DNA from: Branchiostoma lanceolatum
Lineage: Eukaryota > Chordata > Leptocardii > Amphioxiformes > Branchiostomatidae
Reading direction: 5' to 3'
NCBI RefSeq assembly: GCF_035083965.1
Contig: NC_089731.1
Coordinates: 8,778,501 to 8,842,500, forward strand
DNA: 64,000 nt
A model generated the notes under the pieces. That model did no database searches. It was given only the letters and a program-made list of their open reading frames with translations, and was not told the origin of the DNA. A program made the translations under genes and the position numbers. Positions 12,080 to 42,519 of this stretch are shown here, piece by piece (the stretch's first letter is position 1; the number at the start of each line of letters is the position of its first letter).

Positions 12080-15000
12080 ATGTTCAACATGGGGTACGTG
12101 AACAGTGCCCTTGTCCTGCTGTGTATTGTGTCCCTATGGTGCAGTAAGGAGGCAGTCGGAACAACCCCGCAGGAAGCTGCCGAGATAAACAGTCAGTATT
12201 TGTTTGGTTTTACTCTCTTGAAGTCTCTTATGAATTTGTAAAAGTATTATGGATATGTAAGAGTAAATTCTTAGAATCATAAGAAAGGATTGTCATGTGG
12301 TAGACGTTTTTCTTTATAAAAGGTTGACGTTCTGGTCTTGTTGTTTACGCTAGGCCTGATAGCAGAAGCCGTGGCGAAGGTTCAACAACTGAAAACAAGG
12401 GTTGTGGACAATCAGGACCTGCTGGTCATAATAACGCAGTCAGGTAAGATTTTTCTAAAGAAACGTTGTTTTTTTACTTCGGTTTTTGACAGACAAGGAC
12501 GACGTGGCACTCAAGTTTTTATAACTTATATAAACAGTGCCACGTACAGATAACAACATACCCATTCTTTTATTCGACTGGGCGAAGTGAGGAAAGTCGT
12601 GTTAAGTGCCTTTCTCAAGGGCACTTAATCGGTGGCGTCAGGGGGATTCGAACTCGGGACCTCTTGGTTCTGGGCCGAACACCCTGCCGTTACGCCACAC
12701 GACCCCACTAAAGAAACTTTAGCTATAAATGCTTGACATTGTCAGCATTACAAATTTTTATATAGATTTTCTTTATTCGTGTTTTTGTTCATCTTTGTCT
12801 ATTTCAGCACCGAGGTGGAAACCTGTCGACGGTGCGATGAAGTATGTGACGGTTGGGTCCAGTGGGATCTGGGGAGTGGACCAAGCTGACTCCATCTACT
12901 ATCGTTCGGGAACGTTCGAGAACGAAGCCTCTGCCGGCAACAACTGGATGAACATCCCTTTTGGCCCTGGAGGTTTGAGTCAGATCGCGTCGGGACGCTC
13001 TGTCTGGGGGGTCAACCGCTCTCAAAATATTTTCGTACGACTGGGTCAGTATCTTTTACTTCACCCCACGTATTTCACCGCTGCCACTAGTGTTTTTATG
13101 TGTAAGAGTTATTGATTTGTTTATCGTTTCAATGCGCATACATACAAGCAAAATACAATCATAAGATTACGAAACCGTGATGAACGCAGTACGCTCGAGG
13201 AAACCTATCATGGTTGTTCTTGGGCCCTCCCCCGATCGCTATGATTTAGAATGCCCGTACGGCGTCAAATTCATCATTCAGATATCAACCAAAGCGTAAA
13301 CAAAGCATAACACAAGAACTGCAACTCCTAGCCGACCCCGACCAAAATCTGTAGATGTGCTTGGAGAATATTTTCTCACTTGCAAATATAGAATGATCTA
13401 CACCTAAAGCGCCCTCTCACTGGACCCGCGGCACGCTGGCGGCGTCGCTGCGGCTGATCGAATTAACAAAGCACTCAACGAATTTCATCTGCAAAAAAAA
13501 GACAAATCCTGTTAAGCTTTGTGTGCCTTGTTGTCTTTTTTATCATACTTGTACGTTTTGAATGATATTCCCATTATAAAGTCAAGGGTAACACAAATCC
13601 AGTTTAGGACGCAGCGATGCCGCCAGCGTGCCGCGGGTCCAGTGAGAGGGGGCTTTCAGGCACGTCCCATGGCCAGATCAAGGGTCAAGTTCTGCTGCAA
13701 TACTAAGGAAAGTCACTAGACCTAAATTTTATAATTCCTTCCCAATCAGGTATAACACCTAGCAACCCGACAGGAACCAGCTGGCACCAGATTGGCGGAG
13801 GGCTGAGTCAATTAGACGTGAGCTCTACAGCGTTCTCGCTTTGGGGTGTCAATTCTGGTGGCTACATCTACCGACGGACAGGGATCACGGCAGATAATCC
13901 CGGAGGTAAACTATGTGTCTGACAACATCAAAATCAATTGACGTGTCTTCCCCGATTTATAGCGAAGTGTTAGCTATCTTAACGTTGCTAATATTGCTAG
14001 GCCTCTCAGGTCTAAAAGAAGCTTGGAATAGCAAATGATGACTTTATTGTGTAAGAGTATAATATAACGTTATGTCAACTTCTGTTGCATTAACACCGAT
14101 TGTAGAAAACTAAACTTTTCTACAAGCTGTGTAGTTGAGATAATTCATGTTCATGAAAGACTGTCTGAAACGTCTGAATGTTTCAAAATCTTATCCAGGT
14201 GCATGCTTGAGTAATTATTTTTGGCGTATCTTATTACCTGGATGTCTAACCTTCATCAACGTTTCATGAGAAACACATATGCATTGGACAACAGAATTCT
14301 GTGTACACAAGTACATATAACAAAGTGTTTTATTAGTACCGACACTTAGGTTTGAAAACAGCAACTCTGACGACTGGTTTATGACTGGTTTACACTGAAC
14401 TACAAGAGACTATGTAGATAAGATTATACATATCTATGAGTAACAAATGGTGAGCATGTCTACCACACATACAGGTACAGGCTGGCAAAACATTGCCGGC
14501 GGGCTGAAGTTCGTGTCGACTGGTGCCGCCGGCGTGTGGGGGACGAACCGGAACAACGACGTCTTCTACCGCGTGGGGACGTACGGGAACGAGGCTTCCG
14601 CGGGTACCGGCTGGGCTCACATCGCGGGGAAGCGACTGAAGCAGGTGTCATCAGGGGACAACATTGTGTGGGGAGTGGACACCAACGATGACGTCTTCAT
14701 CAGGGAAGGTGAGTGCTTTCTTTTTCACATTCACAAGTCTCGTCATAGTCTCGTGTTCTCGCGAGACTAGGTCACTCCGTGATCAAGATGTACAGTAGAA
14801 ATCGAAAATTTGGAGGTGCGTATCTCGTTACCTTTTCTAATTCATTGATTGATGAATAGTCTTGTAACCAGAATTTTACAAATCATGAGCCCCTTTGTAA
14901 ATGATGACGCACTTCATGTGCATATTTCTATGAAGTGTCACATGCAAATTCATGAGAAATAAATCTAAATCTGAATCTTAAGTTGATAACCAACGTGTCA

Positions 15001-17498: not shown

Positions 17499-19479
17499 AT
17501 GATCGTTCGCCATTCCGTCGACCTTGTAGAGGGTCCTCTACCGAACCCAAATCTCCGGGGCAAGCAGCTGGTCGCAGCGGAGGATGGCATGAACTACACC
17601 GCCTACGATGTCTTTCTCCAACCGGGCGAAAGTGTGTGTTTGACATCGCCCCCCTCCCCCCTCCTGAACCATGTGTACTACTGCTTGTCGGGAAGTGGGA
17701 CAGGCACGGCGTCCAACGGTCAAGTGTACGGGTTCGGCCCTGATGTTGTAGTGGCGTTTTCATCCAGTATAACATGTATGGTATGCACATGATCACCTTA
17801 TCAAACATTTAGTAATTTAGTGGTTGTGACTGTGATTTTAACTGCTGCAATTTTGCCCCCGGGGCCCCTTTCACTATTTTGTTTGCTTAACCTGAGCACC
17901 CACCTTTCGATCTTTTATCTTTGTAGAAGTAGGTGAATTAACGTGCTTTGTCTTAAATCTGCATATAGTTACATTTACCATGTACATTTACACCGTCAGT
18001 AACTCATTCTGACATGGTTGTCCTTTCTTTCACCTCGGCTTCGACATGTCGAACAAAGTCTGTATAACACCATCTGGACTCTAGCCTGGATGCCGCACAC
18101 CCGATCTCTATCATATGCGGGGGCAGGTCTAACTCTGGGGACCTGTTATATAGAATTTTCTTGGAGGCATGCTGGCCCTAGAGCCGAAGAGTTGACCCGT
18201 GTACGCCCTGAAAACAGTCTGACGCCCAGGCTACACAATCCCTGAATCCAGGGCGCTACTTGGGAGAAGAGAAAATGATAATCTATATGGGGAAAAAGGA
18301 ATGTAGAGGAACAAAAAGATCACCGTTACGTACGTGTAATTAGTTGAATTAAATTGAACCCCTAAATGTGTTGTTGTGGTTGTTGTCCTTGTCTACCGCC
18401 TACGTAATTTCGCTAGACAGGGTGGGTCAGTATCTGTGCAACGATAATATGACAAAATGAAGTCGTGCCATGAGTGAGAGTTGATAAATTTGCAAAGCAA
18501 GAGAACATTCGGCAGCAGGTTAAATTTTCGATTTTTTGTTGGCATTGGCACTGTGATTGTGCTGTTAATTTGTATGGATAGGTGCAAATTCTATCATAAT
18601 GGTTAAGGCACCAGCCGCAGCGTCTGAACACAAACTGCGAAACAATATAGAAACAGTAATCTTGGTTGTCTTTTTAATTTTTTCAATATTGACGTCGACG
18701 TCTCCTTTATAGGTTAAAGTCACATCTGATCAACAGCTCCGCCTGTTCTGCATCTACTGTGATGACGTCGAGCCGTCCGTTGATCGGGCCGTGGCTCGGT
18801 CTCTTTCGGATATCGTCGGTACCGATCGTGACATCGACTGGGGCCGAGGCCACAGTCGAAGATTTCTGAAAAAGTCGGACGGTTTCCCGATCAGCGTCCA
18901 CAACACTTATGGAGAGGCTGGTTCAAGAAATGCGCTGTGCTTTTAACATCACGTTGAGTCTGCCTGCTATGTGAAAGGTACAGTATTCGTAGCGTGCAGT
19001 AGGTTTTATGATTGACAGGGGGCGTTGTCTTTATACCTCTGAAGAGAAGCTTTCGCTAACAGGTTGTCATTGTAGAGAGGAATCTGAAGGTCCATCAAAA
19101 AGTGACCACAATGGCCAGGTAAACTTTATGATTATACAGACAGACTCTGGGGTAGTCACCTGTACAGGTTTGACTGTATTATATCTGATTTACCGAGATG
19201 TATTTTGCTGGATTTTGTAAAACGAAAACAACAATCTGTATATCCCTTCTGTCTTTTGCTTTAGGTAGGGTCACCTACACATGGGAAGAGGGTGCCAAGA
19301 AGGCGGAGACCCGGATAGACGCTACGAACGGAAGCGTCTACAGTATGAATGCGCACGACCCGCACCACGCAATCATTCACGAGGACATGGAGTCCTTGTG
19401 TGTCTTCCACCCAGTCTTGGTTGGGAACGAGAACCACGATTTCAGCGGAGGGTACTCTGGATACAAGCCTTCTGAGTAA
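17499..19479 (+). pseudogene. EctC-like double-cupin gene, copy A (in-frame stop)
   Basis: Three exons, 17499-17780, 18713-18977 and 19265-19479 (TAA), correspond one to one with copy B. The start is the MIVR methionine, the same N-terminus as bacterial EctC. The second cupin keeps GTDRDIDWGRGHSRRF, then TAA at 18944-18946 falls where copy B has the lysine of C-Y-K-H-H-V-E. The reading frame resumes with the metal-ligand Glu and with VYSMNAHDPHH in exon 3. The stop removes the whole active site, so the copy looks recently inactivated unless exon 2 is bypassed or the base is an assembly error. Exon 1 ends in ATG|GTATGC where copy B has the stronger ACG|GTAAGT donor. Few other changes separate the copies, so inactivation is recent. 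Confidence 0.8.
18082..18233. mobile_element. Short MITE in copy A intron 1
   Basis: TAGCCTGG and CCAGGCTA bound about 150 bp of non-coding sequence inside intron 17781-18712. The corresponding intron of copy B lacks this element. Confidence 0.45.
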
Positions 19480-20689: not shown

Positions 20690-23600
20690 ATGATTGTCCG
20701 CCATTCCGTCGACCTTGTAGAGGGTCCTCTACCGAACCCAAATCTCCGGGGCAAGCAGCTGGTCGCAGCGGAGGATGGCATGAACTACACCGCCTACGAT
20801 GTCTTTCTCCAACCGGGCGAAAGTGTGTGTTTGACATCGCCCCCCTCCCCCCTCCTGAACCATGTGTACTACTGCTTGTCGGGAAGTGGGACAGGCACGG
20901 CGTCTAACGGTCAAGTGTATGAGTTTGGCCCTGATGTTGTAGTGGCGTTTTCATCCAGTATAACCTGCACGGTAAGTGCGATTTACGTAAAAACACCATG
21001 CTAGTTTGGATCTGAGTTGTATGCAATTGCCACTCTCCCACCCAACCTTCACTTTTTGTTTGTTTGACCACCGGCCTCTCTATCATTTATCTTTGTTAAA
21101 GCAGATGAGTTGCCATCAATCTGTGTAGAATTATACATTAACCATTACACCATTACTGAACACGACAGGGACACCCTATCCAGTAAATAAAACTCAGGGC
21201 ACGCGTTCTGTTCTGACATGGTTGTCCTGAAATTCTTTCACCTCTTCGAACAAAGGTTAATGTGTAACACAATCCTAGTCTCCAGGCAGATCCTACGGTG
21301 GCGGGCGGTATCCGTGGGACGGCATTTATTTGTATAAATAATGAAATTCTATTATAACGGTTACAGCTTTTGAACAAAAACAAAAACACCAAGAATATTA
21401 AAACAACGTACACCAGCTCTCTAATACAATACAATACAACACAACGCACACTCATCTTGATTGTAATTTAGATTTCTTCAATACCTTGACGTCTCCTTTA
21501 TAGGTTAAAGTCACATCTGATCAACAGCTCCGCCTGTTCTGCATCTACTGTGATGACGTCGAGCCGTCCGTTGATCGGGCCGTGGCTCGGTCTCTTTCGG
21601 AAATCGTCGGTACCGATCGTGACATCGACTGGGGCAGAGGCCACAGCCGAAGATTTCTGAAGAAGTCGGACGGTTTTCCGATCAGTGTCCACAACACCTA
21701 TGGAGAGGCTGGTGCAAGCAATGCGCTGTGCTACAAGCATCACGTTGAATCTGCCTACTACGTGAAAGGTACTGTATTCGCAGCATGCAGTAGGCTATAG
21801 GATTGATAAAAAGTATATTATGATAATGTTTTGCCAAAAATAATGTTTTTGCCTTTATACCTTTATAGACTTTGGAATGATTTTACTATGGACAATTGGT
21901 CATTTTAAAGAGAAATCTGAAGGTCTACCATTAAAAAGTGACCACAATGTACAGGTGAACTTTATCCAGACAGACTCCGGGGTAGTCACATGTACAGGTT
22001 TGACTGTATTATACAGACGACGCCACTTAATTGCACCTCGGATACACGCACCTTCCATTTAATTGCACCGAATCCCAATATCCAAAACCGTAGCCTGTAT
22101 TTACACAAGCTCTCGGCCGGAGGTTACTGATCCCCTAGGGGATGGCGGTTACGGGACTGGCTGGCCACTAGGAGCGCGACTCGTCAGGCTATCCAAAACC
22201 GATTCCCATTCACTGCATTGTTAGTGACTCCGCATATCTGCACCGCGCATGGTCACCAATGCCGGATAACCGAACCATTTTTTTTCTTCAAAAATCGTCG
22301 ACAAGTTAACTGAAAAGGTGCGCTAAAATCGGCAAACGCGGTACAAATGAGCCGATACCTGCCGGTGTAAAGGCACAATACCGCCAATATGTTTATCTCC
22401 ATGAAAAATGGAGATATAGTTTTGAGTGTGTCTGTTTGCCTGTCTGTCTGTTTGTCTTTTTGTGTTTCCGCACCACTCCAGTCAGCAGTCAAGAGCCTCT
22501 TGATGGATTACAATGATATTTGGTTTGTGGGCGGGTGTTTTGAAGCCGAAATTCATAACTATGATATTTTACTGTATAGTTGCTGTATAGTACGGTATTT
22601 TGCTGTACTTCACAGCGCAATTCAGGCGCAATGGTGACCTGTCATCATTTGTAAACATTTGTAAACATTTTAACATTTGTTAACATTTGTAAACTTTTAT
22701 AAACATTTGTAAACTTTTGTAAACTTTTGTAAACATTTGTAAACTTTTGTAAACTTTTGTAAACATTTGTAAACTTTTGTAAACATTTGTAAACTTTTAT
22801 AAACATTTGTTAACTTTTGTAAACATTTGTAAACTTTTGTAAACTTTTGTAAACGTTTGTAAACTTTTGTTAACTTTTGTAAACTTTTGTAAACATTTGT
22901 AAACTTTTGTAAACGTTTGTTAACTTTTGTAAACTTTTGTAAACTTTTGTAAACATTTGTAAACTTTTGTAAACTTTTGTAAACATTTGTAAACTTTTGT
23001 AAACATTTGTAAACTTTTGTAAACTTTTGTAAACTTTTGTAAACTTTTGTAAACTTTTGTAAACATTTGTAAACATTTGTAAACTTTTGTAAACATTTGT
23101 AAACCTTTGTAAACGTTTGTAAACTTTTGTAAACTTTTGTAAACATTTGTAAACTTTTGTAAACATTTGTAAACTTTTGTAAACTTTTGTAAACTTTTGT
23201 AAACTTTTGTAAACATTTGTAAACATTTGTAAACTTTTGTAAACATTTGTAAACTTTTGTAAACGTTTGTAAACTTTTGTAAACTTTTGTAAACATTTGT
23301 AAACTTTTGTAAACTTTTGTAAACTTTTGTAAACTTTTGTAAACTTTTGTAAACATTTGTAAACATTTGTAAACTTTTGTAAACATTTGTAAACTTTTGT
23401 AAACGTTTGTAAACTTTTGTAAACTTTTGTAAACATTTGTAAACTTTTGTAAACTTTTGTAAACATTTGTAAACTTTTGTAAACTTTTGTAAACTTTTGT
23501 AAACATTTGTCAACATTTGTAAACTTTTGTAAACATTTGTTAACTTTTGTAAACTTTAGTAAACATTTGTAAACTTTTGTAAACATGTGTTAACATTTGT

Positions 23601-25042
23601 AAACTTTTGTAAACTTTAGTAAACTTTTGGAGATATAGTTTTGGGTGTGTCTGTGTGTGTTTCCGGACTACTGTAAGCAGCATAACTCAAGAACCTCTTG
23701 ATGGATTACGATGATATTTGGTATTTGGGCAGGTGTTGTAAAAGGTCGATTTTGGGCCCCCTGGTATGTGACGTTGGTACTGCAGCAGAATTTCAATTTT
23801 TGTATCTTTTGACCTGGACGTGCTGTGGTCTTGATTTTTGGGTGGCAGATAGCTTGTGATGTAATAAAGAAGTGGTGTAGGTTTGGGCCCCCTAGCAGCT
23901 TCCTTGGCGTTTTAGTGAAAATCGTCTAAGGAGAATAACTGAACAAAGGAACAACGGATTTAGTATGCAGGTAGCTTAGATAGAGATATAAACAATGAAT
24001 TGCAAATTATGCTAATTGTGACTTTCTTTGCATAGCTAATGAGGAAAATCTATATTTGCAGTGTTTTCCATTATCAGACTCAAATGCATGTAACGTATGT
24101 AGTTTATGGAAAGTGGATCATCAACAGATATCAATTATGCAAATAAATTCCTAATTTGCATAATTAATGCAAAACAACATATCTCATCTAATTGGAAAAT
24201 TATAGGACTGTCAATATGATACTTAGTATGCAGGTAGCTTAGACAAAGATATACATAATGTAGTGCAAATTATACTTATTGTGACTTAATTTGCATAGCT
24301 AATGAGGAAAATCTATATTTGCAGTGTTTTCCATTATCAGACTTAAATATAACAGTTTATGGAAAGTGGAGCATCAACAGATACCAATTATGCAAATGAA
24401 TTCCTAGTTTGCATAATTAATGCAAAAACAACATAATCCATCTAATTGGAAAATTATAGGACTGTCAATATTTCAACATGTGTAAGTTAGATAAAGATGT
24501 TTATGACTTAGCATATATTATGCAAATGTGTAAGTCATTTGCATGAATAGAATTGTTCATGGAGATATGAGGTCGTGGAACTCTTGTTTCGTCTGTTTTC
24601 TTTGTGCTAGTGTTTCTAACTAACAATACACCCCCTCGCCCATGGTGGTGCGGTCCAGCTGGGCATTTCGCATAATTGCACCAGTCGGATAATTGCACCA
24701 AAAACGCTGACAAATGGGTGGTGCAGTTAAGCGGATTCTACTGGGGTATCTGATTTACAGATATGTATTTTGCTTGATTGTGTAAAAAAAACGACCAATC
24801 AGTTCATCCCTTCTATCTATCGCTTAGGGAAGGCCACCTACACATGGGAAGAGGGTGCCAAGAAGGCGGAGAGCAGGATAGATGCTACGAACGGGACCGT
24901 CTACAGTATGAACGCGCACGACCCGCACCACATGATCATCCACGAGGAGATCGAGGCCCTTTGTGTCTTCCACCCAGTCTTGGTTGGGAACGAGAACCAC
25001 GATTTCAGCGGAGGGTACTCTGGGTTCAAGCCTTCCGAGTAA
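20690..25042 (+). CDS. Ectoine synthase-like fused double cupin, copy B (intact)
   Basis: Exons 20690-20971, 21504-21768 and 24828-25042 (TAA) give 253 residues, about twice a bacterial EctC. Residues 1-110 form one EctC-like cupin (MIVR start, AAEDG, NHVYYCLSGSG, GQVYEFGPD). Residues 122-253 form a second, closer one: EIVGTDRDID, SRRFLKKSDGF, YKHHVESAYYVKG, VYSMNAHDPHH, CVFHPVLVGNENHD. The three iron ligands known for EctC map to Glu176, Tyr208 and His216, with the Tyr-to-His spacing of eight kept. The GxExH end motif is also kept (Gly236, Glu238, His240). In the first cupin the same positions are His58, Val85 and Cys93, so it is not expected to bind iron. EctC cyclises N-gamma-acetyl-diaminobutyrate to ectoine. 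The substrate here is unproven; the Trp before S-R-R in bacterial enzymes aligns with Gly140. No EctA or EctB partner is in the window. No signal peptide, so probably cytosolic. Confidence 0.82.
22065..22195. mobile_element. TAGCCTG MITE (also at 39599-39707 and 60724-60816)
   Basis: The element runs from AGCCTGTATTTACACAAGCT to GCGCGACTCGTCAGGCTA. Its core CGGCCGGAGGTTACTGA and GGCTGGCCACTAGGAGC recur in two other copies, one of them inverted. It is nested in the 2.73-kb insertion. Confidence 0.7.
22648..23629. repeat. 10-bp satellite (AAACTTTTGT), about 98 units
   Basis: Units AAACTTTTGT, AAACATTTGT and AAACGTTTGT run for nearly 1 kb without any indel from about 22681. Because the period is 10 and no unit has a minus-strand stop, all minus frames are open as a YKSLQKFTKV-type repeat; this is not a gene. 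G-variant units at 23111, 23261 and 23401 recur every 140-150 bp inside a repeated order of A- and T-variants. Family R sequence (GGAGATATAGTTTTG) flanks both sides. Confidence 0.95.
23630..24520. repeat. Family R segment with two tandem units of about 265 bp
   Basis: After GGAGATATAGTTTTGGGTGT the sequence matches 40160-40800 and 7920-8290 in inverted orientation. From 23958 to 24475 two similar units follow, each starting TTAGTATGCAGGTAGCTTAGA and ending GGACTGTCAATAT, with ATTTGCATA words. Non-coding. Confidence 0.7.
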
Positions 25043-26978: not shown

Positions 26979-29900
26979 TTAGAAAACTTCGGGGAAGAAT
27001 CGCCCGTGGATGGCAAACGGTATGTACGTCTTGGCGTAGGCATAGTTGATGGTTTTCAAAGTCTGCGCGTCAAGAATCAACAGATAACTTTCCTTTCGCT
27101 GTCCGTCGAGAATGGTGGAGATGAGAACGCCCTGGTCTTCTGCCGTGGCGTTCGGATCGGGGATGAAGTACGGTTCGTTAGGGTAGTGGTTAGGGATGTA
27201 CCAGTGCTTGTCGCCTCTCCCACCGTTGCAGAGATCCTTTTTAACGATGGCAAAGTTATCGTGCACTGTCGGAGTTTGCGGATCAAAGGAGAAGACGACT
27301 CCGTACACGTAACAGTAGTTGCCACTACGATGATTTTCGTTGATCACCGGGAGCTCCATTCGGTTCACGAAGTTCAGTTCGGGTGTTTTTGGAGAGAACG
27401 TGGAGACGCTGACTCTAGATTCCTCCATGTTGAGCGTGAAGCGCTTTAACATTGCCCGGTTGGTCAGTTTGCTTCTCTTCCCTTCGTCTAACATTGTGGC
27501 AATCTCGAATTGGTAAAGCATGGAGTTGTCCGGGTAGGTTATCATATCAACGACTATGTTGCCATCCCGCTCAAAGGCGTTGACGTGGTGTACAGCAAAG
27601 AAACCTGGCGTTTTCATCTCTGACACTTTCCCGTCTTTAAGAGAGATAACCAGAAACTTGGTATCATCCTTACCCTCCCATTCAAAACACTTGCCTGCCT
27701 CTGCCGAGTTCAGCATTTTGGGAACGCTGATATAGAGGGGGTAGAGAGAGACAATGGCGTAGTTGTCAGTGATAGAGAAGCTATGCATGTAAGATATCCT
27801 CTCTAACTTAACGTTTGTTATGATCTCTTGTGTAGAAGTGTCTTTCATCCTGAAGAGTGACAGGGTATGCTTGAGTCCTGGTACAATGTTCACGGTGTAG
27901 ACCAAGTTAATAGTGTGTCCCGTTTTGGGTTCGTATAGAGGGTGGGCTGTCGACATCAATGAGAGAAGATTTACGATTGGATGAGTGATGTCAGGTTTGA
28001 CCAGACTTATGGTACTCAGCGAACCAATGTCGAACTTAGAAAACACGGCTGCATCCGTGAGCCCGATGAATTCGGCGTCTCGTCCCGTCCCTATCTTCCA
28101 GACGTTTGCGTTGGTGTTGTCGATGCCGTACAGGAGAGCTTCGGCCCTTTCTTCGAACGTAAACGCGGGGTTCACACCGTCAAACGTAAGGGACGTGGCG
28201 TAGTCGTTCTCAGAAATGGACCGTGTGTAGGTGGACGTGCCTAAGAACGAGGCCGAGAAGAGAATCTGTGTGCCGTTGTTGATCTTGAAGGAATGCAGTT
28301 TGGCGAAACCGTCAAATGTGTGGATGACGCTCCGCCCTCCGATGTTGAAGCGACCTGGACCATTTCGTACCTGAAGAAACATACGTGAAAAAATCGAGTC
28401 ACCTTACTGATTGTAATATGCTAATGAGGTGAACGTATCCAAGTATGAGATTAAGTCGGCCTTAGAATAACGCCCTTTTGATAAATGTGAATCAATGGAA
28501 GAAAAAAAAAAAATCTTATCAAAATTAATGAGTTAGGTAGCGAAAACACTTTTAGAAGATATCATTATGCTATTACCCCATCTTAAGTCATGAGTTGCTA
28601 ATTTCCTGGTGATTTGATAAGTTGGTATACATAACATTAGTGACACAGCAGATTATAAATGTGACACTTAATCTGTAGTCTAACGGAAATGCTACTCTAT
28701 AGGAATACCAGCAACCACTGTGACAAACTCAGCAACACGGCCTTTATTCAGATAACAAACGACTCACTGTCTGCCTGTAGTCTGTCAAAACAGCTGGGAC
28801 CTCGTTGCAGTCGAGCAAATGTTGACATTTCTCGGCTTATCAAGTTGTGTAACATACCTAGTCAACACACGGTTAGCACGGCAGTCAGGCCAACTCAATT
28901 AATCAATCAGAATGTTTGGTTGAAATGATTACTCAGGTCCTTAGTTAGATACTAGGGGCTCTTTGTTTCCTTTGTGAATGGGACGTTTCTGTCAAAAGTC
29001 CTGAAATTGATGTTTTAAGTCCTGTGCTATGACAAAAAGGGATAAGGGTACATGTGTGTGTTAAAACCAAAGATTAGTTACAAAGGTAATTAATTGTCAT
29101 GTATGTCTCTCACACATATGCGGTACTGGAGAGACTTTACTTGTGTGGTAGTCTTCCTCTGCCTTTGGTTTTAAAACAAAATGTTGGATTACCTGACATC
29201 TGGCGTCAACATGTCTATTGATTAATGAATGTGACCGACACAAAAAGGTTACTATCAATGGGAGTCCAGTCAACATTTTCATAACATTGTTTAACATTTC
29301 ATGAGATTTTAGGAATCATTTTTGGTCAAATTCTGAGCATATAATATGTAACGGGGGTCCCATAACTTCGACAGTACCATAACTTCGACAGTACCATAAC
29401 CATTTTAATTTAGCGATTGCTAAAAGCTTTGATGGACGGCTATTGAAAAGTCAAAAAAAAGACTGCAATTGTAAATGACGAAAGATGATAATGATGATGA
29501 TGATGTAAATGACATGAAGGAAAATCTTCATTGTCCAGCGGAAATCATTAGTGATTAACATAATTTTTGAGAATCAAACGTCCTCGCCATCGAGCTTGCA
29601 AGCGTCTCCCGTCGTTTACAGATGTCAGTATAAACAGATCTTTGTGTCTTCTCATGTGCGAGTACAGCCCAATACTTGACTCTCGCAGAATCTCTATACA
29701 AAAATGAATGAGGATACACTACGACTCTTTTTTGAGAGTGAGAAATTGTCACTTATCTGTCTGCTCCTGGTGTGAATACGTAAAGCACACACTTCAAAAC
29801 TACCCCGTACAAAAGGTCCAATCCTGTGGACCACACTTCTCAACTATAACGATTCCCATGTGACTAAAAGCAAGATTCTTGAATCTTTCTTGTTGGATGT

Positions 29901-30300
29901 TGCCAGAAGATGTCAAAGTAGTTCTTAGACACTATCTTCTCTCGCTTCTTTCTTAGATAGATACACAGGTCGTGTTTGGTTATAAACATTGAAAAGATTA
30001 AAACCTTTGGTGGTTAAAGTTTCACAAGAGAGCCACGTGCACCGGCACGCTACAGCAGTCTCTAGCTAAATCTTAACTGGACTCTCAATGAATGACAGAA
30101 TGAAGTGACTAGTTACTCACGAAGGTGCCGTGGACCCAGTGTGGGACCGGTGTGTCGTTGAACCACTGGATCGGACGGTCTTGAAATTCTTCAAAGTTAT
30201 CTCTGAAGAAATATTCCAGTCCAACGGTGCTTGCTTGAACGCAGCCTGAAAAGGCTAGAATAACAGTTGACAAAAACAACATTTTGTTTCCCAGCGACAT
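26979..30300 (-). CDS. Carotenoid cleavage oxygenase 1 (BCO/RPE65 family) with signal peptide
   Basis: Two exons: 30300-30121 (60 codons) and 28370-26979, joined in phase 0, giving about 523 residues. Exon 1 starts with a hydrophobic leader (MLFLSTVILAFSGCVQA) and ends WVHGTF. Exon 2 opens VRNGPGRFNIGGRS, the family's entry motif. Four iron-binding histidines are present in their usual contexts: AHPLYEP, YMHSFSIT, VHHVNAFE and IHGRFF near the C-terminus. The late motif PDPNATAEDQGVLIS also fits. Family members cleave carotenoids or isomerise retinyl esters; the exact substrate cannot be read. Vertebrate members are cytosolic or mitochondrial, so a secretory leader is unusual, but all three copies here have one. 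Paralogues 2 and 3 have an extra intron after the first RN-P block, absent here. Intron 28371-30120 has no recognisable gene. Confidence 0.92.
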
Positions 30301-31937
30301 TTCTAAACTTTTTTTTCTGATGTGCCAGAACGAGATATCTGAGTTCTTGCAAATTTAGAAGTGCGACAAAGAATCCTTAAGAGGGGACTTATATTGACGT
30401 TCGGACATGTTTGCTCAGTCGATCACATAACAAATAGAGACGTTGGTATGATGATATCATCTGGGTATACTGCGCATGTGCAGTACTTTGATAGAAGACT
30501 GTTAGTCACGTGTTTGTCGAAAGAGAATAGACGGGCGTGTGTCATTTACTACGAACGTGTGACTCATGTCGTATTTCATTTCACACATGAGATATCCATC
30601 CTGTCCTGTCATGTCCTTTAGTATAAAAAAAGGGTTTCTTTCGTGCTTCAAGTCATGATATACTGTATGCAGACATGTGATATTAAAGTCATAATGCATT
30701 CTTATTTGGGAAGTAAATTGATGCATGATTGATTTGAATCTGTCAATAGGGAACTTATTATGGAAAAGTTAGGCAAATTGCACATTTGTGTATACTTATG
30801 ACGTTACCATCAAAGACTTATTGTGAAATGCACTACGTGATTGGAAATGTCCATGTTTTGTACGTACTTTGATTGACATGTATACTCTCTAGAGTTAGAT
30901 AAAAAATACACAAAGGGTGAGTATTTTATATAACAAGTCAAATCTTAGTGCAGAGTGCATTTAACAAGTGACGTAACCTTATTCTTGGGACTCTTATAAA
31001 ATATCTTATAAAAACTGTTATGCGTTCCCCTCCACATAGACTGTTTGCTATGCCTGTGCAATCTTTTATACGCAAATAAAATTCTAATTGACCTTTAGAC
31101 TTATAGTACAGTGCTAATATTTTTCCAACTATGTAACAGGTCTAGAGGTCCACTTTTTTTCTTTGCTGGTCATTCAAGGACGGTGTTGATTAAAGCGTAT
31201 AAACAACCATTACTGTCGTGTTCTCTTCTGTTTCAGTGGAGAATTCATAAGATGCAGCTGCAATAAGGAAGTTTAAACATTTGTTTTTTAATTCTATCTT
31301 ACTCATGTTATGAGCAAGGCAATACGTTTGGAAGCCAAGCTAGTTGTGACAGCGCTGAGCTATAACATTATGCTGTATCTGACACTAGTCAAGTACCATG
31401 CCTAAGAGTTTCAAACAAGTAACATGAGGCGATGGATTGAGGGGCAGCATGATTAGAAGTGGGGAGGGGGTGCAATATGAAGAAGAGGAGAAGGTTCATA
31501 TTCTTGGCTTACAATGCATCAAGTCAAGATTTCTTAATTCAACAATGTGGGCAAACACCGACGTTATGTACTTATTGTGAGTATGTTTGCCGACGAGCAG
31601 CGGAGTTTGTTCCGTCGGCTGTGTCTCACGGCCCGTCATGAGGGAATTCTGAAAAACAACTCGCCGTTGCTGGGTGACCAGAGTGTTGTGCAAGAATGGT
31701 AAGATCTACAGTATAGGAAATGAATGTTGTCACCTGACCGACCCCAGCAAAGTACTGCCGACCGTTTTTGGGGTCTGCCACTGACAAGGGGCTTTGGTAC
31801 CCCATGTACTGTGACAGTCTCCGCGCACCACACGGCATGTAGATTACTTTGCGTACTTCAATCCTTAAATGTCTATTTGACGACATTACCACACGTGCTG
31901 TGACTGAATGCGTTGTGACTTTAACTTCTATTTGCCC

Positions 31938-32013
31938 GGGGCTATTGACAGGATCATCCTGTCAATATCGAAAATTTTCTGTTATTGACAGGAAGATCCT
32001 GTCAATAGCCACT
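31938..32013. mobile_element. Nested-palindrome element, second copy
   Basis: GGCTATTGACAGGATCATCC and the mirrored end GGAAGATCCTGTCAATAGCC flank a short AT-rich loop. Each arm is itself palindromic. Same family as 25949-26024. Confidence 0.75.
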
Positions 32014-33979
32014 TGCCTTCTATTTTTCGACATCAACACACATAAAGGGACAGTTCATTGTGACTTTTACTTCTATTTTACGATATCACCACACATACTG
32101 TGACAGTTTGCGGTGACCTGCCAGATGACTGTGAGTCATTGACTTTAGTTAAGCTAAAGTCCTTCTTTCGGTGTACATTGTATGTAGGGGCGGTGCCCAT
32201 ATCCCTTGATTATACAACCTTCGCTATAACCCCTAGGCCACACAGGTACTGCCACACTGCGGTAGGGGGCTAGTCCACTGGTAGTGGACTGTGTTCAACT
32301 CCCACACTCTTTGTTAGTCAAAGTTAAAATCAAAATCCTCCCACACCATAAGGTGTATAAGGCGGTGCCCATCTCCGTTTCATAGCCTTGCTTCATAATC
32401 AAGTTTATATCATAACTAGAGAACAGTCACCTATTAGCTTTAATAATACCTCGCCGGATGGTTTATTGATGTGATGATGGTCGCTAAATAAGTACACCAT
32501 AGCGCTCCTATCGGCGAGTTACGGTAGTGCAGACAAATCATCCGTTTATGCTATGACTGTAGAATAAGCTCAATCTGGGAGTCAGATGCAGTGCATAGAA
32601 CTAGCATCGTCTAGTTGCTTTTTGTTTAACAGTCAAAGTACACAACTTCGAAACAACACGAAACAACGAAAGGCACAGGTATCTTGGACGACGGACTTTA
32701 TCCAGAATTTGTACAGCTCATGCAGACAAGTTGGACTTTGAAACGGTAGAGGGCGCTATTAGCACATTGCATGTACACGAACAAGCAATCAAATGGAAAA
32801 GCCACTTTGCAATTCCCTTGTGGTCAATGTGTTTAAAAGTTGCATATTCAGTAAGTTTTTGTTGTTGTAGATGTTCTTAGATATGTGCCCACCGTTTAAG
32901 AGACCGAATAAAGTTGTATTAGACTTTGTAGATAAAAAGCACTGCATCAGCATTTCCCATCACAGGACGACATACGTGACTAGGCGTTACATATGACCAG
33001 TTTTATTCGATAAAGAAAATATTATATGTTACATATCATACCTTAATGAATAATAGTAGAATCCCCTTTGCACATGCGCACAAGCTACCCAGTAGCACGT
33101 AACTCTGCATTACCCACTTAAACTAATCAAATCATGTGACTTATGTACACTCTAGTAAAGGTCATGACGGTTAGCTTAATGCTTGTAGTAAGTATGTCAT
33201 TAATCATATACATCTCATTGCCTCCAGATTTTCTTGCAATAATGATACATTGTTTTTTAATTGGCCGATTCATTTGCATTGAATTTTGATATAAAGGTGT
33301 CCACATTCAGCACAATTCAGCGTATCTATTCAGAGTATTCTTGAAACTAATCCAACACCAAACTTTACGCAAAGCAAGTTGCCTTCTAGCACAACCTATT
33401 CTATACTTTTCCAGGTACGTAACATTGTTTGTACTCATTGTACGTACTAACCATGGGTCTTTTCAAAGTACATCATAGTCTTGTGGATGTAGTCCTATGT
33501 CACACAGGTCGTGGACTTTATTTAATCACGATGTGCGCACGCATTCCCCACGCACTGTCCGATATGTGTGCTAGCGTTGGGTCCTTCACCCCTTTAGCTA
33601 ACAAAAATAACGTATACTCGGAAAAACATTTGGATTTAGGTCATCCCTTTGCGGGGAGGTAAAAGATCACACCGCGTTGCATAAACATGCATGGAGACAT
33701 TTGAAACACACCAAGCGTCATTTACACGGGGTTGGATGATTGTGAGGTAATGAAATATCTAGAGTTCCCTCGTTTTTGTGGTTATTGTGTTTTTTTTAAA
33801 TCCTAAAATCTGTTATAGCAAAAAGTAAAACATTTTTTTCTGGTTGATCAGTAGGGTCTGGGGATGTTTTTAATTCTGACACATACGAGCGAGAGAAGAA
33901 CCTTTTGTTTGTCAAAATCACCTATACAACCTCTTGTATCAGTAGCTCAGAATGGACCGACAGTCTCAAATTATATATT

Positions 33980-34190
33980 CTCCAAGCAGAGGTTAGGCTC
34001 GGGCTAGGTTGGGACTTTTTGTATACGACTGAGTCGGGCTTTCTATTTCATCAGTTTTTCTTTTGACCGCCAGCCAAATACAAACAAAAGAAAAGCTGAC
34101 AAAATAGGGAGCCCGATAAAAAACGCCTAAAAAACGTCAAAAACCTGCGGGAGCTCAACCTCTTATTGGAGAATATCAAAATTATTGTTT
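33980..34190. mobile_element. Foldback MITE (family of 4636-4945)
   Basis: The element starts TCTCCAAGCAGAGGTTAGGC and ends with a degenerate inverted copy (CTCAACCTCTTATTGGAGAA). The interior also pairs with itself. It is about 100 bp shorter than the first copy. Confidence 0.7.
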
Positions 34191-34309
34191 TAGAGCTGCC
34201 CTATAACTTGTATAAGCAATGGGAAAGGCACGAGGTTAGATCTAGCATGTCGGCCCCTTCTGTCTCTCAAAAATGCACAAGCGCACCATGAATAATTTAA
34301 CAATCCACA

Positions 34310-34560
34310 TGTACAAGAACAATCAAGACCACAGCACGTCAAGAAACATATAAAACCTGCCGTTCTGCGGCAGTAGCAAGGTCGGCCACCAGAGGCCCGA
34401 AATCGACCTTCATCACCTTTGCGTCTACAACACCTACAAACACACCAAATATCATCGCAATGCATTCGGGGGCTCTTAAAATATTGCGCCGGATACACAC
34501 ACACACGTGCGCACACACAGGCCCAGAACTTTACCTCCCATTTTTAGGGAGGTTATAAGG
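34310..34560. repeat. Family R fragment
   Basis: Words such as CACCAAATATCATCGCAATG and an (AC)n run near 34495 match the right part of the 40160-40800 copy. Confidence 0.5.
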
Positions 34561-34650
34561 AAACCACAAATAAGTCAGTAGCTGATACTTTAAACAAAGT
34601 GTTTATTAAAACCACCCTAAAAGTGATACAAAACTTTTAGATAAAGCCAT

Positions 34651-35091
34651 CACTGCGAAATGTTGTGGCAAATGTATTTTTCTGCCTGCATTTTACTTTA
34701 TAGAGTTAACCAAGCCATGCTTTAACAACCGTCCTTGTTCATACATGTAGTTTAATAGGTTGTATGTAAAGTACGCAGAAGTGTCGACGATGGTATTTTG
34801 ACAAATCCTTGTGAACTCTAAGTAACCCCTAAGGTATCAACGTCCAAGTCTTACATAAAGTGACCAACCAAACGGTACACGATAGCCAAAGGTCATACCT
34901 TAGGGGTTACTTATAGTTCACGAGGATTTGTCAAACTGCCATCATCGACACTTCTGCGTACTTTACAACTGTACATAACCTACTAAACTACATGTATGGA
35001 CAAGGACGGTTGTTAAATCATATTATATGGCTTGGTTGGCTACAAAATAAAATACAGGCAAAAAACACATTTGCCACAATATTTCGCAGTG
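34651..35091. mobile_element. Large foldback element, arms about 190 bp
   Basis: The left arm 34651-34837 (CACTGCGAAATGTTGTGGCA ... AACCCCTAAGGTAT) is the inverted, slightly diverged copy of the right arm 34895-35091. A loop of about 57 bp separates them. No coding sequence. Arm divergence of a few percent suggests a moderately young insertion. Confidence 0.8.
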
Positions 35092-35323
35092 AACTCTGGG
35101 CCATCCTCATTAGTTAATCGAGACTGCCATACTTCCCCGTTCCATCTCTATGTAAACCCTTCTACACAAGTGGGCCATATTCTTTCATTGTGGAAAAATA
35201 TATGAGAGCATATTTCTGTCAAGATTTTGCAAACAGAATTGACAGTCGTACAATATGTATGAACTTAGTGATCTTGAGAGTAACAACGAAACGTTAGGAG
35301 CTAAATCTTCCAAAAGGGAGCAC

Positions 35324-38300
35324 TTATTCTTTTGGGAAAAATTTGCCATGGAAGCCAAACGGAATGTATGTTGGCATGTAGGCACTGTTGATGGGTTTCA
35401 TGGTTTTGCCATCGAGAATGAGGAGATAGCTTTTGCCCTGATCGGCGTCGAAAACAGCCGACAGGACGACTACGTCATCTTCGTCTTTCCCGTCGGGATT
35501 GGCGACGACGCTCGGCTCACTGACGAAGTGAGTCGGTTTATACCAATAGAGATCTTTACCGGGGGTGCACAGGTTCTTTTTTACCAAAGCAAAGGAACCG
35601 TTTAAAGCGTTGGACGGAGAAAAGTCGAACACAACGCCATAAAGGTAACAGTAGTGGCGGCCTCGGTAGTTTTCGTTAATAATCGGAACGTCGACTTTGT
35701 GGAGATAGTCCTGCATGGGGTCGTCACTGCGGAAAGTTTTAGTTTGAACGGACTTGTTTGCTAAATCAATAGTGTAACGGTAAAGCCTAGATTTGGACGG
35801 CCTCTGGTGTAGAGTGGTTAGGTTTCGTAACATAGGGAGTTTATAGTCACCAAAAACAGCCACACCCTCCTCAAACGCGCAAACGTCGGCCACGATCTTA
35901 CCATCGGCAGTTTCGTAAGCGTTTGCGTGGTGCGTGTAAAAGATGGCGTCGGTTTCTACTGTTTCTATCTTTCCTGTTTTGAGGTTGGCCACTACGACTT
36001 GTGTCTTATCCTCGGGAAACCACCCCATAGAATCCCCCACCATTGCTGTGTTTACCATTTTGATAAAGTCAAAGACAGCTGGTTGAACAAAAAACACTGC
36101 GTAATTTTCAGTCAGGGCAAAACTATGCATGTATGATGACTTCTCTGACTGGAAGTTGGCCAAAACTTCGAAAGTGTTCAGGTCCTTAATTCTCACTACA
36201 TAGTACTGCTGTTTTTGACCGGGAATCAAACTAGGGAACATTAAGTAGTTAATGCTATTATTTGTACCGGGTTCGACAAGAGGGTGGGCACAGGATTGGA
36301 CAAGACGAGACCAATGTATGCCGTTAACTTGAGGAATATCAACTCCTTGGGAGGCAAGACTGTCCAGGTCAAACTTAGCGTAGACCCACGCGTCGGTGAG
36401 CGCGGCGTACACGCTGTTGTCCCCGTGCCCGTACTTCCACACGTTCACGTCGGTGTTGTCGTAAGGGAACTCGAAGGCTTCCAGCTTCTCAACAGCGTTA
36501 AACCCCGGGTCGACGCCGTAGAAGGTGATGGCAGGGGCGTAACGTTTGGCCGCCTTAGATCTGTTGAAGAATGTAAGAGATTAAGTTCTCCCAAGTCAGT
36601 TTTCTGGTCACTTTTTGCATTAGCAAATTGAGTAACCCCTATTCTACTTCAAATTGATATGCAGGTAGCAAATATGTGACATCATTGCGTTGTATGAGCA
36701 TGTAGAAAATAAACCTACTATCTTCGTTTGCATTACACCTTAGCATGTATTTGAAAATACCACTTATCTTAGAGTACCCGGCCTTGTATTCGTAATTATA
36801 TTCCCCTTCCAGTGGGAAGGGGGATATACTGTTTTTGCTTGCCTGTTCTTCTTCTTCTTCTTCTTTCTTCTTCTTCTTCTTCTTCTTCTTCTGCCAAAAA
36901 CCAAGTAGATGTGCGGTGGTACATGTAGCTCTACTAATGGTATTGCAAAACGTTATTTGTTCCTTATGTTACATGGTACGGATGTTATATTTGAGATGTA
37001 GGTACCTATAGGAAAGGTGAATACACCTGGACATAAATTATGTTAATGAGGACCTAATTTGCATAATCTATGCATAAACTTGTATTTCCCTTACCATAAA
37101 AGCTGCAGGTGTCATATTTGAGATGTAGGTACCTATAGGAAAGGTGAACACACCTGGCCATAAATTATGCTAATGAGGACCTCATTTCCATAATTTATGC
37201 ATACAATTGTATTTCCTTTACCGTAAAAGCTGCGGATGTCATCTTTTGAGATGTGGGTACCTTTAGGAAAGGTGAATGCACCTGGACATAAATTATGCTA
37301 ATGAGGACCTCATTTGCATAATTTATGCAGAAACGTGCATTTCCCTTACCGTAAAAGCTGCATATGTCATATTTGAGATGTAGGTACCTTAAGGAAAGGT
37401 GAACACACCTGGCCATAAATTATGCTAATGAGGACCTCATTTGCATAATTTATGCATAAAGTTGAATTTCCCTTACCGTCAAAGCTGCGGATGTCATCTT
37501 CAAGATGTGGGTACCTTTAGGAAAGTTGAAATCACCATGACATGAATTATGCTAATGAGGTCATCATTTGCATATATTATGCAGAAACTTGTATTTCCCT
37601 TACCATAAAAGCTGCAGATGTCATATTTGAGATGTAGGTACTTTAAGGAAAGATGAACACACCTGGCCATGAATTATGCTAATGAGGACATAATTTGCAT
37701 AATTTATGCATACACTTGTATTTTCCTTACCGTTAAAGCTATGGATGTCATATCTGAGGTGTAGGTACCATTAGGAAAGTTCAGAAAACCTGACCATGAA
37801 TTATGCTAATAAGGACCTTATTTGCATAATTTATGCAGTAACTTGAATTCTCCTTACCGTAAAAGCTACAGATGTCATATTTGAGTTGTAGGTACCTTTA
37901 GGAAAGGTGAATACACCTGGCCATAAATTATGCTAATCTGGACCTCATGTGCATAATCTAGGCATAAACTTGTATTTCCCTTACCGTGAAAGCTACGGAT
38001 GTTATATTTGAGATGTAGGTACCATTAGGAAAGGTCTGAAAACCTGGCCATAAATTATGCTAATGAGGGCCTCGTTTGTATAATTTATGCAGAAACTTTA
38101 TAATACCCCTACATTCAATGCTAAGGATGTCATATTTGAGGTGTAGGTAATGGGAGGGGAATATCCTGCATTTTCCCGAAAATGTTGCCATTCTAGTTGC
38201 TGACAATATTACCAATACTAGAATAGTTAAAAATTACTAACCAAGAGGTGCTAGAGCAAGCAGACATCCCATCTATGTACGAGATTTTACGGAAAAATAG

Positions 38301-40078
38301 ACTGCGCTGGCTAGGTCATGTCAGTCGGATGGACGACACAAGACTTCCAAAGAGAGTACTGTATGGTGAAATCTCTACTGGGAGCCGCCCCAGGGGAAGA
38401 CCTAAGCTGAGGTACAAGGATATCTGCAAATCTACGCTCCAAGATTTCTCTACTTGCAAGGACAACTGGGAATATATAGCAGCAGACAGATGTAGATGGA
38501 GAGCAGCAGTGCACAGCGGCATGGAGCTCTACAGGGCTGCCCGTGAGAAGAGAGAATCGGAAGCTAGACATAGAAGGAAAAACAGAACAGAGGGGATAAA
38601 CGTCAGTGAAGTCTTTCACTGCACTTTCTGCAACAGGATTTGCCGTGCCAGAATTGGTCTCCTAAGTCACGAGAGGCACTGCAAAGCTAGGACCCCCCCA
38701 GAGTGATCGTGACTGACTGCTAAGCTGAGAGATAGACCGAAAGCTGTCGACCGTCTTCAGAGACGACAAGAGCCAAAGTCCAAAGAATAGTTAAGAATAT
38801 CGAACTATTTCGGCCAGCGACAAAAGTAGGATATAGTGTAAATGCAGAAATGTTCACGGTGGTTTATGTTTTCGCGGCGACCGTTTCACCGCTCCCTTAA
38901 AACCACCGCGAAAATTTTTGTCCTATACTGTAGCAGTATGTGACTATAGCGCTGCCGCAAACTTAAAACCACCGCAAACACGCCATTTTCGTCTTAGTGC
39001 TAAATAAGAACCACGCGAACTTAAATGCATTTACAGTACTTGTTTTGGCTTCATAAAGAATAAAGCAGACCTTGTGTAGGCGCTTGTTTGCAGGAAGGCT
39101 GAAGAGAAGTTGATGGCCTGTTGTCCGATGGCTATGCTGTGGATCTTGGCAAAACCGTCAAACACGTGAATGGCTGAACGACCGCCAAGCTCGAACATCG
39201 CAGGAGCGTTCCGAACCTAAAGAACGGGGGTTTAAGGAAAACCATGTCGTTTATCAAGTTACAGTGGCCACAAACAAAAGCAAAGCGTCACAGAAAAGTG
39301 TGGACACCTTTGATGAGACGCCATGAGAATAAAAATTGCCGATCAAAACTAAATTTGTTTTACAAATCAGCGTTGCAAAAGACGACCAAAACGCTTCAGC
39401 TTCAAGCTCATCAAAAAGCAAATATCTGTGGGGGATTGTGAAATCAATTTGCCCTATGTACATACCTAATGATCTCTTCACCGCACCCCTACCCCCCTTC
39501 CTTCCCAGGAAAAGTGGTTTGACTTCAAACCTTCTCCTAATCGCATGTGGAATTTCTATCGGGCATTAACTTGATTTAGTTCATATCATTCGTATATTAG
39601 CCTGTGTTTACACCATCTCTCACTAGCGGAGGTTAACTAGTGACCCCCTCCCCGAGAGAGCGGTATCCGTCGGGCCGGCCGCTACGAGCGCGATTTAGTC
39701 AGGCAACTGCGTATCATCAACATCACTCTGACTCTAAAATACCTGACCGCTGACATGACCAGTACTTTTATAGGGGTAATCTTTCTCGGTGACAGTTCTA
39801 AATCTTAAGTATAAGTTTTGCTGATATGACGTTCTGAAACATTGCAAACGAATCCAACAAAAAAGTACTTTTCTGAAGATAAGCGGCATTTTCTCAGTAC
39901 TTACTAGAGTTCCTTCCAGCCATTTCGGGATGGTGTTGTTGGAGTCGTACTTCATGGGGACGTGTTGAAGTTCCTTCAAGTTTGTCGTGAAGAGGTCCAT
40001 AAGATGTTTGGGTGTCGCGGAGACCGCCGACACCGTCACGGCGAGAAGGAAGCACAGGTGGACCGTGGAGACCGCCAT
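35324..40078 (-). CDS. Carotenoid cleavage oxygenase 2 (BCO/RPE65 family) with signal peptide
   Basis: Three exons: 40078-39905, 39216-39071 and 36560-35324, giving about 518 residues. The start chosen (MAVSTVHLCFLLAVTVSAVSA) aligns with paralogue 3 and begins a signal peptide; the upstream ATG at 40120 has no counterpart there. Exon 2 begins VRNAPAMFELGGRS. Iron ligands lie in AHPLVEP, YMHSFALT, THHANAYE and FHGKFF. The acidic late motif PDGKDEDDVVVLS is present. The exon 2 donor is GTCTGC, weaker than the GTAAGT of paralogue 3. Intron 36561-39070 is swollen by a 128-bp tandem repeat and a LINE tail. The gene lies head to head with paralogue 3, 2.4 kb between starts, and their 5' UTRs are alignable. 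Substrate not readable. Confidence 0.93.
36843..36893. repeat. (CTT)n microsatellite
   Basis: An almost pure CTT tract in oxygenase 2 intron 2, next to the 128-bp tandem repeat. Confidence 0.9.
36970..38150. repeat. 128-bp tandem repeat, about nine copies
   Basis: Each unit carries GATGTCATATTTGAGATGTA, GGTACC, AGGAAAGGTGAA, CACCTGG, TTATGCTAATGAGGACCTC, ATTTGCATAATTTATGCA and TTTCCCTTACCGTAAAAGCT. Starts recur at about 36978, 37106, 37234, 37361, 37489, 37615, 37742, 37870 and 37997. Copies differ by 5-15 percent. It lies in oxygenase 2 intron 2. Every unit has a POU-octamer word (ATTTGCAT) and its near mirror ATGCTAAT. Confidence 0.9.
38230..38706 (+). mobile_element. LINE ORF2 C-terminal fragment
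   Basis: An open frame of about 150 codons shows the tail of a non-LTR retrotransposon ORF2: RLRWLGHVSRMDDTRLPKRV, GSRPRGRPKLRYKD, then a C2H2-like CTFCNRICRARIGLLSHERHC. It ends TGA at 38704-38706. The endonuclease and reverse transcriptase are missing, so it is a 5'-truncated copy, but the remaining frame is intact, hence fairly young. Its orientation is opposite to the host oxygenase gene. Confidence 0.88.
39599..39707. mobile_element. TAGCCTG MITE, second copy
   Basis: AGCCTGTGTTTACACCATCT to GAGCGCGATTTAGTCAGGC, with the GCGGAGGTTAACTAGTGACC core, in oxygenase 2 intron 1. Same family as 22065-22195. Confidence 0.65.
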
Positions 40079-40159
40079 GTCTGAAACCTTCTGAGCTCCG
40101 GGGGAAAGTGATGATCTCATCAGAGGTCTAGTGAACTTTGGTCATGTACACCTTTGACT

Positions 40160-42431: not shown

Positions 42432-42452
42432 AGTTCTGAGTTCGAAAGTTCA
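42432..42452 (+). promoter_or_regulatory. Three tandem AGTTC-type nuclear receptor half-sites
   Basis: AGTTCT, AGTTCG and AGTTCA follow each other with spacers of 1 and 2 bases (DR1 and DR2 layouts), about 70-90 bp before the start of oxygenase 3. AGTTCA is a known retinoic-acid-receptor half-site variant. Functional status is inference. Confidence 0.3.
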
Positions 42453-42519
42453 TTAGACATTGATTAAACTTAAACCACTCACGAGGTCACTGTCTCCTAG
42501 CGTTCAGAAGACTTCAGCA

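Follow-up and report, generated by a model that had tools for sequence, protein, structure and literature searches.

What does a gene of the ectoine synthase (EctC) family do in an animal genome, and where does its fused form come from? The question is raised by a stretch of Branchiostoma lanceolatum DNA of 64,000 nucleotides, called the window below, in which a gene named here copy B encodes two EctC-like cupin domains in one chain and lies beside a tandem paralogue, copy A. With moderate confidence, we read copy B as a bicupin of the orphan-EctC kind and an orthologue of a rare bacterial fused protein, with one active half, making a cyclic amidine-like metabolite other than the osmolyte ectoine.

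The coordinates, exon structure and 253-residue length given for copy B in a first-pass annotation, made from the letters alone, were confirmed. Its three exons comprise 762 nt, which encode 253 amino acids and a stop codon in an intact frame, and both introns are of the GT-AG type. The whole protein matched the Pfam family Ectoine_synth (PF06339) with 111.3 bits (5e-32; cut-off 27) in two stretches, the best covering residues 123-247, which bears out the earlier description of two EctC-like cupins in one chain. The C half alone reached 94.7 bits, above the cut-off, and the N half alone (residues 1-115) gave 20.8 bits with PF06339 and 21.0 with Cupin_2, both under the cut-off. Solved EctC structures match residues 121-249 (best 9.6e-18). 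The stricter NCBIfam model for ectoine synthase EctC (NF009806, cut-off 128) was missed, with 111.8 bits for the whole protein and 94.7 for the C half; two of the bacterial fused proteins described below also fall short of it, with 119.6 and 122.4 bits.

The iron-binding residues were all located in the second cupin, as the annotation had proposed. Glu176, Tyr208 and His216 align with Glu57, Tyr84 and His92 of PlEctC, which passages of PMC6344544 give as its iron ligands. The C half also retains the equivalents of Ser23, Arg25, Thr40, Tyr52, Cys104, Phe106, Glu114 and His116 (PlEctC numbering). The start motif and the GxExH end that had been described are present as GTDRDID and GNENH. The N half has none of the ligands, the three columns being occupied by a gap, Val and Cys. 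Known bicupins, namely (S)-ureidoglycine aminohydrolase (PDB 4E2Q), the DUF861 proteins 1SFN and 1RC6 and the cupin protein 1SEF, belong to another family, with 9-12% identity.

Orphan-type and operon-type features

EctC proteins of ectABC operons (PF06339; PDB 5ONM, 5ONN and 5ONO) have about 130 residues, are homodimeric, carry a tryptophan at position 21 (Trp21) and are encoded alongside ectA and ectB. Copy B has in common with them the cupin domain, the Glu/Tyr/His iron ligands, most substrate-site residues and GxExH, but it consists of two fused domains, one of them ligand-free, and no ectA or ectB was seen in the window. A tblastn search of the 64 kb with five bacterial queries gave no match to EctA, EctB or EctD at E<=1, although short exons could escape it; the absence of a visible EctA/EctB partner, noted earlier, therefore holds.

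According to passages of PMC6344544, Trp21 is completely conserved in 437 operon-encoded EctCs and is shifted by two residues in some orphans. The Trp21 column of copy B holds Gly140, and Trp137 sits three columns earlier. Residues 137-144 read WGRGHSRR and so agree with the orphan EctC motif WGxGxSRR with its shifted Trp. The single-domain relatives (n=97) comprised 81 with the orphan pattern, having Gly at the Trp21 column, and 16 with Trp, a ratio that is not a natural frequency because these singles were gathered with profiles and queries of copy B's kind. In the free tree of C halves (67 rows), orphan-type sequences stood apart from canonical EctC with support of 99/96, although a tree with the animal C half forced among the Trp21 sequences was not rejected (see below). 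Orphan EctC-type proteins are single-domain, whereas copy B is fused, and it is its C half that shares the motif and the shifted Trp with them. Identity to this C half was 37-41% for the orphans of Mycetohabitans (L001, beside a non-ribosomal peptide synthetase (NRPS) gene), Rhizobium gallicum (L008, beside a polyketide synthase (PKS) gene) and Gloeothece (L003, near a halogenase gene).

Gene neighbourhoods were inspected for 12 of the 123 plasmid and phage records matched. Eight orphan-pattern plasmid relatives lie within a few genes of NRPS, PKS, halogenase, AMP-binding/adenylate-forming or biotin-carboxylase-like genes, the last of which we take to be ATP-grasp genes. For three plasmid relatives with Trp21, ectA and ectB adjoin. 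A recurrent cluster was seen on three Streptomyces plasmids (L005, L009 and L011), where ectC-type genes lie near genes for AMP-binding proteins, carrier proteins and acyl-CoA dehydrogenases; two of the three clusters also contain trpA and an indole-3-glycerol-phosphate synthase gene.

Fused counterparts in bacteria

When a collection holding a single genome for each of 84,980 species was scanned with a profile, 298 relatives were recovered. Among the best 80, which were kept, only one matched both halves of copy B: L013, from a metagenome-assembled genome of Salinarimonadaceae (residues 20-243, 33% identity, 1e-38). In the order of L013, a full double was present in 5 of 397 sampled genomes, L013's own included. 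In the family of G147, one of these five genomes, it was present in 12 of 87, counting G147, with 67-98% identity to the G147 protein. The total is 13 bacterial doubles (L013, L121-L124 and L131-L138), and their carriers are, judging from the family name, presumably Alphaproteobacteria. In the proteins aligned, the IVR start is kept, the first cupin lacks the iron ligands and the second is EctC-like. With copy B they share the order of the two cupins, the ligand-free N half and the eight rare residues listed below; they differ in having no introns and 241-247 residues in the copies read (253 residues and two introns in copy B). Moreover, Phe replaces the Tyr iron ligand in the eight bacterial C halves used, where copy B keeps Tyr208.

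The bacterial doubles are rare. Wider samples around L013 covered 60 genomes of relatives, 398 of its phylum and 385 of its class; in each, the one full double was that of the L013 genome itself. No full double was found in 244 and 296 genomes of the phyla of L036 (Nostocales) and L033 (Amycolatopsis), respectively, with no positive control in either; these two scans and that of L013's class reported matches at E<=1e-37 only. A single-sequence query recovered no relative from the genome or viral collections, and viral scans with the profile and with L013 gave no match. Among 72,556 plasmids, none had a place covering 80% of the animal query; one place on a Paraburkholderia plasmid covered 81% of the L013 query and is 174 codons long. 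Each of the five phage records matched has a single EctC-type domain. In four of them (H42-H45, from Pseudoalteromonas and Mycobacterium phages), the matched protein is annotated as ParB-like or as an ectoine synthase/ParB multidomain protein.

Two further kinds of match were noticed in the genome scans. At G188:C8:166987-167523, residues 62-241 of the L013 double are matched across three stop codons, and another scan gave the C half alone. In G039, G080, G248 and G326, frames of 272-404 codons each hold a pair of weak EctC-type matches, and in every case it is the C half of the query that is matched twice; these may be further two-cupin families.

To place the animal protein, 115 rows were thinned to 76, of which 67 entered the C-half tree and 47 a tree of N and C halves together; 12 loci with reverse-strand matches were left out of the extracted rows. 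Eight of the 13 bacterial doubles were used in the trees and residue counts (L131 was left out), six of them in the N-and-C tree. In the latter, animal and bacterial N halves group together with support of 97/96 and C halves with 100/98; the C-half tree gives the same grouping, also with 100/98. Profile scores follow the same lines. The animal N half reached 39.8 bits on bacterial N halves (n=8; 36.6 without L013), 27.9 on orphan singles (n=81), 24.8 on Trp21 singles (n=16) and 1.6 on bacterial C halves. For the animal C half, the scores were 123.9 bits on bacterial C halves versus 108.0 and 107.1 on singles. This half carries eight residues (G161, Y180, Y187, W189, M210, M218, L227 and F242) that are rare in the singles (at most 10% of the 97) and common in the eight bacterial C halves (at least 85% of them). 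In a control of 97 sets of eight neighbouring singles, the maximum of such shared residues was two; single rows taken individually shared up to seven, so the argument is carried by the set-based control.

These results suggest that the animal and bacterial doubles probably have a single origin. Since N halves group with N halves and C halves with C halves, the fusion would be older than the split between the animal and bacterial proteins, subject to the doubt about long branches discussed below. The common origin of the C halves is the firmer link and that of the N halves is likely. In the proposed history, the gene would have passed between bacteria and the animal lineage, gained introns and been duplicated, after which one copy (copy A) would have acquired a stop codon. 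From bacteria to animal is the usual expected direction of such a transfer.

The bacterial gene neighbourhood was read in the 12 genomes of G147's family. All 12 have a 2-oxoglutarate (2OG)-Fe(II) oxygenase gene downstream of the double, within about 5.5 kb, and the oxygenase of the L121 copy is WelO5-like (5.5e-12). In 10 of them, genes for a Lys/Orn N-monooxygenase (3.7e-115) and an IucA/IucC synthetase (3.8e-77) lie between the double and the oxygenase. We call these siderophore genes desferrioxamine-type because the closest solved relatives of the synthetase are DfoC, an alcaligin protein and DesD. Six of the 12 genomes have a second EctC-type match with ectA and ectB beside it, and this EctC is 70-75% identical to operon EctC. 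In at least six bacteria, the double is therefore present in addition to the osmolyte EctC and is not that protein itself. At E<=1e-10 the remaining six genomes gave no second EctC-type match, a result that does not prove its absence.

Proposed chemistry and competing explanations

In the mechanism that we propose, the N-terminal cupin would act as a pseudo-subunit in place of one partner of the head-to-tail EctC homodimer, so that each chain of copy B would have a single active site. There, Fe(II) held by Glu176, Tyr208 and His216 would activate the acyl carbonyl of an N-acylated diamino substrate. The free amine of the substrate would attack, water would be lost and a cyclic, tetrahydropyrimidine-like amidine would result. 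The substrate is probably a specialised metabolite and not an osmolyte precursor, as the 2OG-Fe(II) oxygenase and hydroxamate-siderophore genes beside the bacterial doubles suggest.

Several observations speak against this reading of copy B. The animal branches are long (2.44 for the C half in the C-half tree, 2.48 for the N half in the N-and-C tree), the program warned of this, and the bootstrap of the N-and-C tree was not quite settled. The N-half link is the less firm one because, among the N-and-C tree rows, the sequence most identical to the animal N half is a Trp21 single (L076, 30%), because the animal N half alone (tblastn, E<1) found many singles and not the N half of L013, and because forcing it together with the Trp21 singles lowered the log-likelihood by 7.3 and was not rejected by the approximately unbiased (AU) test (p 0.11). 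Identity between animal and bacterial N halves is limited to 23-26 of 111-112 residues. A tree with the animal C half forced into the Trp21 clade was likewise not rejected (log-likelihood 15.0 lower, AU p 0.334). The 12.5-kb contig of L013 has no oxygenase or siderophore genes of the kind seen in G147's family. The Phe at the Tyr ligand position means that the chemistry may differ between the animal and bacterial doubles. Finally, the structure model is that of a bacterial protein; of the five versions of this model, two had scores of 63.4 and 61.7, and the first 20 residues, which include the dimer strand, have a predicted local distance difference test (pLDDT) score of 61-66. Fold searches with this protein listed no solved EctC among 50 rows, as expected for a two-domain query, so EctC gains no support from fold alone.

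The low N-half identity, the nearness to a single EctC and the tolerated forcing with Trp21 singles would also fit a domain duplication, or a fusion of two EctC genes, within the animal lineage, with the bacterial doubles being convergent. We consider this highly improbable given the cross-kingdom grouping of both halves, the best score of each animal half on the matching bacterial half and the eight rare residues of the C halves. A tree that made sisters of the two animal halves was rejected (AU p 0.0036) and, together with the 13 bacterial proteins of like build, this leads us to reject a duplication made by the animal; the fusion is not the animal novelty that the first-pass annotation had seen in it. 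Contamination of the assembly by bacterial DNA, to which the bacterial nature of the relatives found might point, has a negligible probability: the two GT-AG introns, the intron-bearing tandem paralogue and the animal genes on both sides refute it. It is very unlikely that copy B is a decaying relic following copy A. The stop at codon 172 of copy A and the transposon-like insert in intron 2 of copy B could be read that way, but copy B has an intact frame with the iron triad, and dN/dS between the copies is 0.20.

A more serious contender, which we nevertheless regard as unlikely, is a working ectoine synthase that cyclises N-gamma-acetyl-diaminobutyrate (N-gamma-ADABA), obtained from microbes, diet or genes elsewhere in the genome, to ectoine. 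It is consistent with the kept iron triad and substrate-site residues, with the His at the Asn38 column, which is the commonest residue there among Trp21 EctCs (9 of 16), and with the tolerated placement of the C half among canonical EctCs. Passages of the review PMC5924519 also report ectoine production by an orphan EctC from Pseudomonas syringae in a Halomonas ectC mutant, and by P. syringae itself upon addition of host-plant leaves; the same source states that external N-gamma-ADABA did not give the expected ectoine in P. syringae and calls the data not conclusive. Copy B, however, has its Trp at the orphan and not the canonical position, misses the NCBIfam cut-off (111.8 versus 128 bits) and has no EctA/EctB match in the window, and its bacterial counterparts lie near oxygenase and siderophore genes, with a separate ectABC in 6 of the 12 genomes. 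The earlier suggestion of chiefly an ectoine synthase fed from elsewhere is thus not upheld. Alternatively, the cupin could perform quite different iron chemistry, as an isomerase, hydrolase or dioxygenase, or have a binding role. Cupin reactions vary widely, ureidoglycine aminohydrolase, BacB and quercetinase are among the nearest folds to the bacterial protein, and the Tyr ligand is replaced in the bacterial C halves used; the EctC substrate-site residues and GxExH kept in the animal C half make this improbable for copy B.

The locus and the meaning of the gene

The annotated features of the EctC-like pair are collected in the table. Copy A (17499-19479) has the exon structure of copy B and is identical to it at 273 of 282 nucleotides in exon 1, 249 of 265 in exon 2 and 194 of 215 in exon 3. 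Divergence between the copies, excluding the stop codon, amounts to 0.164 synonymous (dS) and 0.032 non-synonymous (dN) substitutions. Its in-frame TAA makes copy A a probable pseudogene or source of a truncated product and rules it out as a second working enzyme.

Table. Features of copy B and its tandem paralogue, copy A, in window coordinates
Feature	Position	Strand	Remarks
Copy B exon 1	20690..20971	+	residues 1-94, bulk of the N-terminal cupin; without iron ligands; MIVR start kept
Copy B intron 1	20972..21503	+	phase 0, GT-AG
Copy B exon 2	21504..21768	+	end of the N-terminal cupin and first half of the C-terminal cupin; WGRGHSRRFL, iron ligand Glu176
Copy B intron 2	21769..24827	+	phase 1, GT-AG; lengthened by a transposon-like insert that is not in copy A
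Copy B exon 3	24828..25042	+	second half of the C-terminal cupin; Tyr208, His216, GNENH, stop codon
Copy A exon 1 (tandem paralogue)	17499..17780	+	
Copy A exon 2	18713..18977	+	in-frame TAA, codon 172
Copy A exon 3	19265..19479	+	

The insert in intron 2 of copy B spans 22014-24746 and has no counterpart at the matching site of copy A (19174). It has imperfect inverted ends (18 of 24 bases matching, the right end three bases short of the junction) and is flanked by TA on both sides. A 10-bp minisatellite of about 98 copies lies within it (22648-23629). From its sequence, the insert looks like a non-autonomous DNA transposon.

The window is animal DNA, since frames neighbouring the pair match families that fit an animal. 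Nine frames other than the EctC-like pair were scanned: three matched RPE65-type oxygenases, two PI3-kinases and two tectonins, and the remaining two gave no family match. Three genes of the RPE65/carotenoid-oxygenase type (two on the minus strand, one on the plus strand) adjoin the pair at 26982-44843, and tectonin-repeat exons lie on the plus strand upstream of copy A (12729-14767). With the GT-AG introns, copy A and animal-type neighbours in seven of nine frames, the description of an intron-bearing, fused gene amid animal genes proved correct. What stands of the EctC-family identity put forward at first pass is this intron-bearing fused gene, settled in an animal genome and with the iron triad in its second half; the animal novelty and the role of chiefly an ectoine synthase found no support.

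To call the system undescribed was also too strong for the gene type. Passages of two reviews (PMC5924519, PMC5796728) cite Harding et al. for ectC-related sequences in Branchiostoma floridae and Saccoglossus kowalevskii, which, like copy B, place the EctC family in marine deuterostomes, and the window may hold such a case. The eukaryotic fusions mentioned in these passages are ectA-ectC(-ectD) and not EctC-EctC. The available text of PMC5447177 makes no mention of ectC, ectoine synthase, B. floridae or S. kowalevskii, and part of PMC11639872 lists PF06339 in the corals Seriatopora and Favites. No description of an EctC-EctC fusion was found in the titles, abstract openings and selected passages of the literature. 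The gene type is thus known in outline; new are the fused architecture, the bacterial counterparts, their gene neighbourhood and the orphan pattern.

According to passages of PMC5924519 and PMC6344544, the function of orphan EctC proteins is not settled. A fused form in an animal, together with a defined bacterial neighbourhood, offers a handle on it: a product class is suggested by the genes around the bacterial doubles, and the animal enzyme is directly testable. The product is probably another ring-shaped molecule, because the closest relatives found are rare bacterial doubles, mostly near iron-scavenging genes. More speculatively, and rather doubtfully for now, the animal's metabolite would be cyclic, undescribed and possibly metal-binding, and the iron bicupin making it would be one that also belongs to a bacterial hydroxamate-siderophore/oxygenase neighbourhood, with its first cupin turned into a dummy subunit of the EctC dimer. 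The locus is a case of a bicupin common to bacteria and an animal, and it cautions against annotating animal PF06339 genes as ectoine makers.

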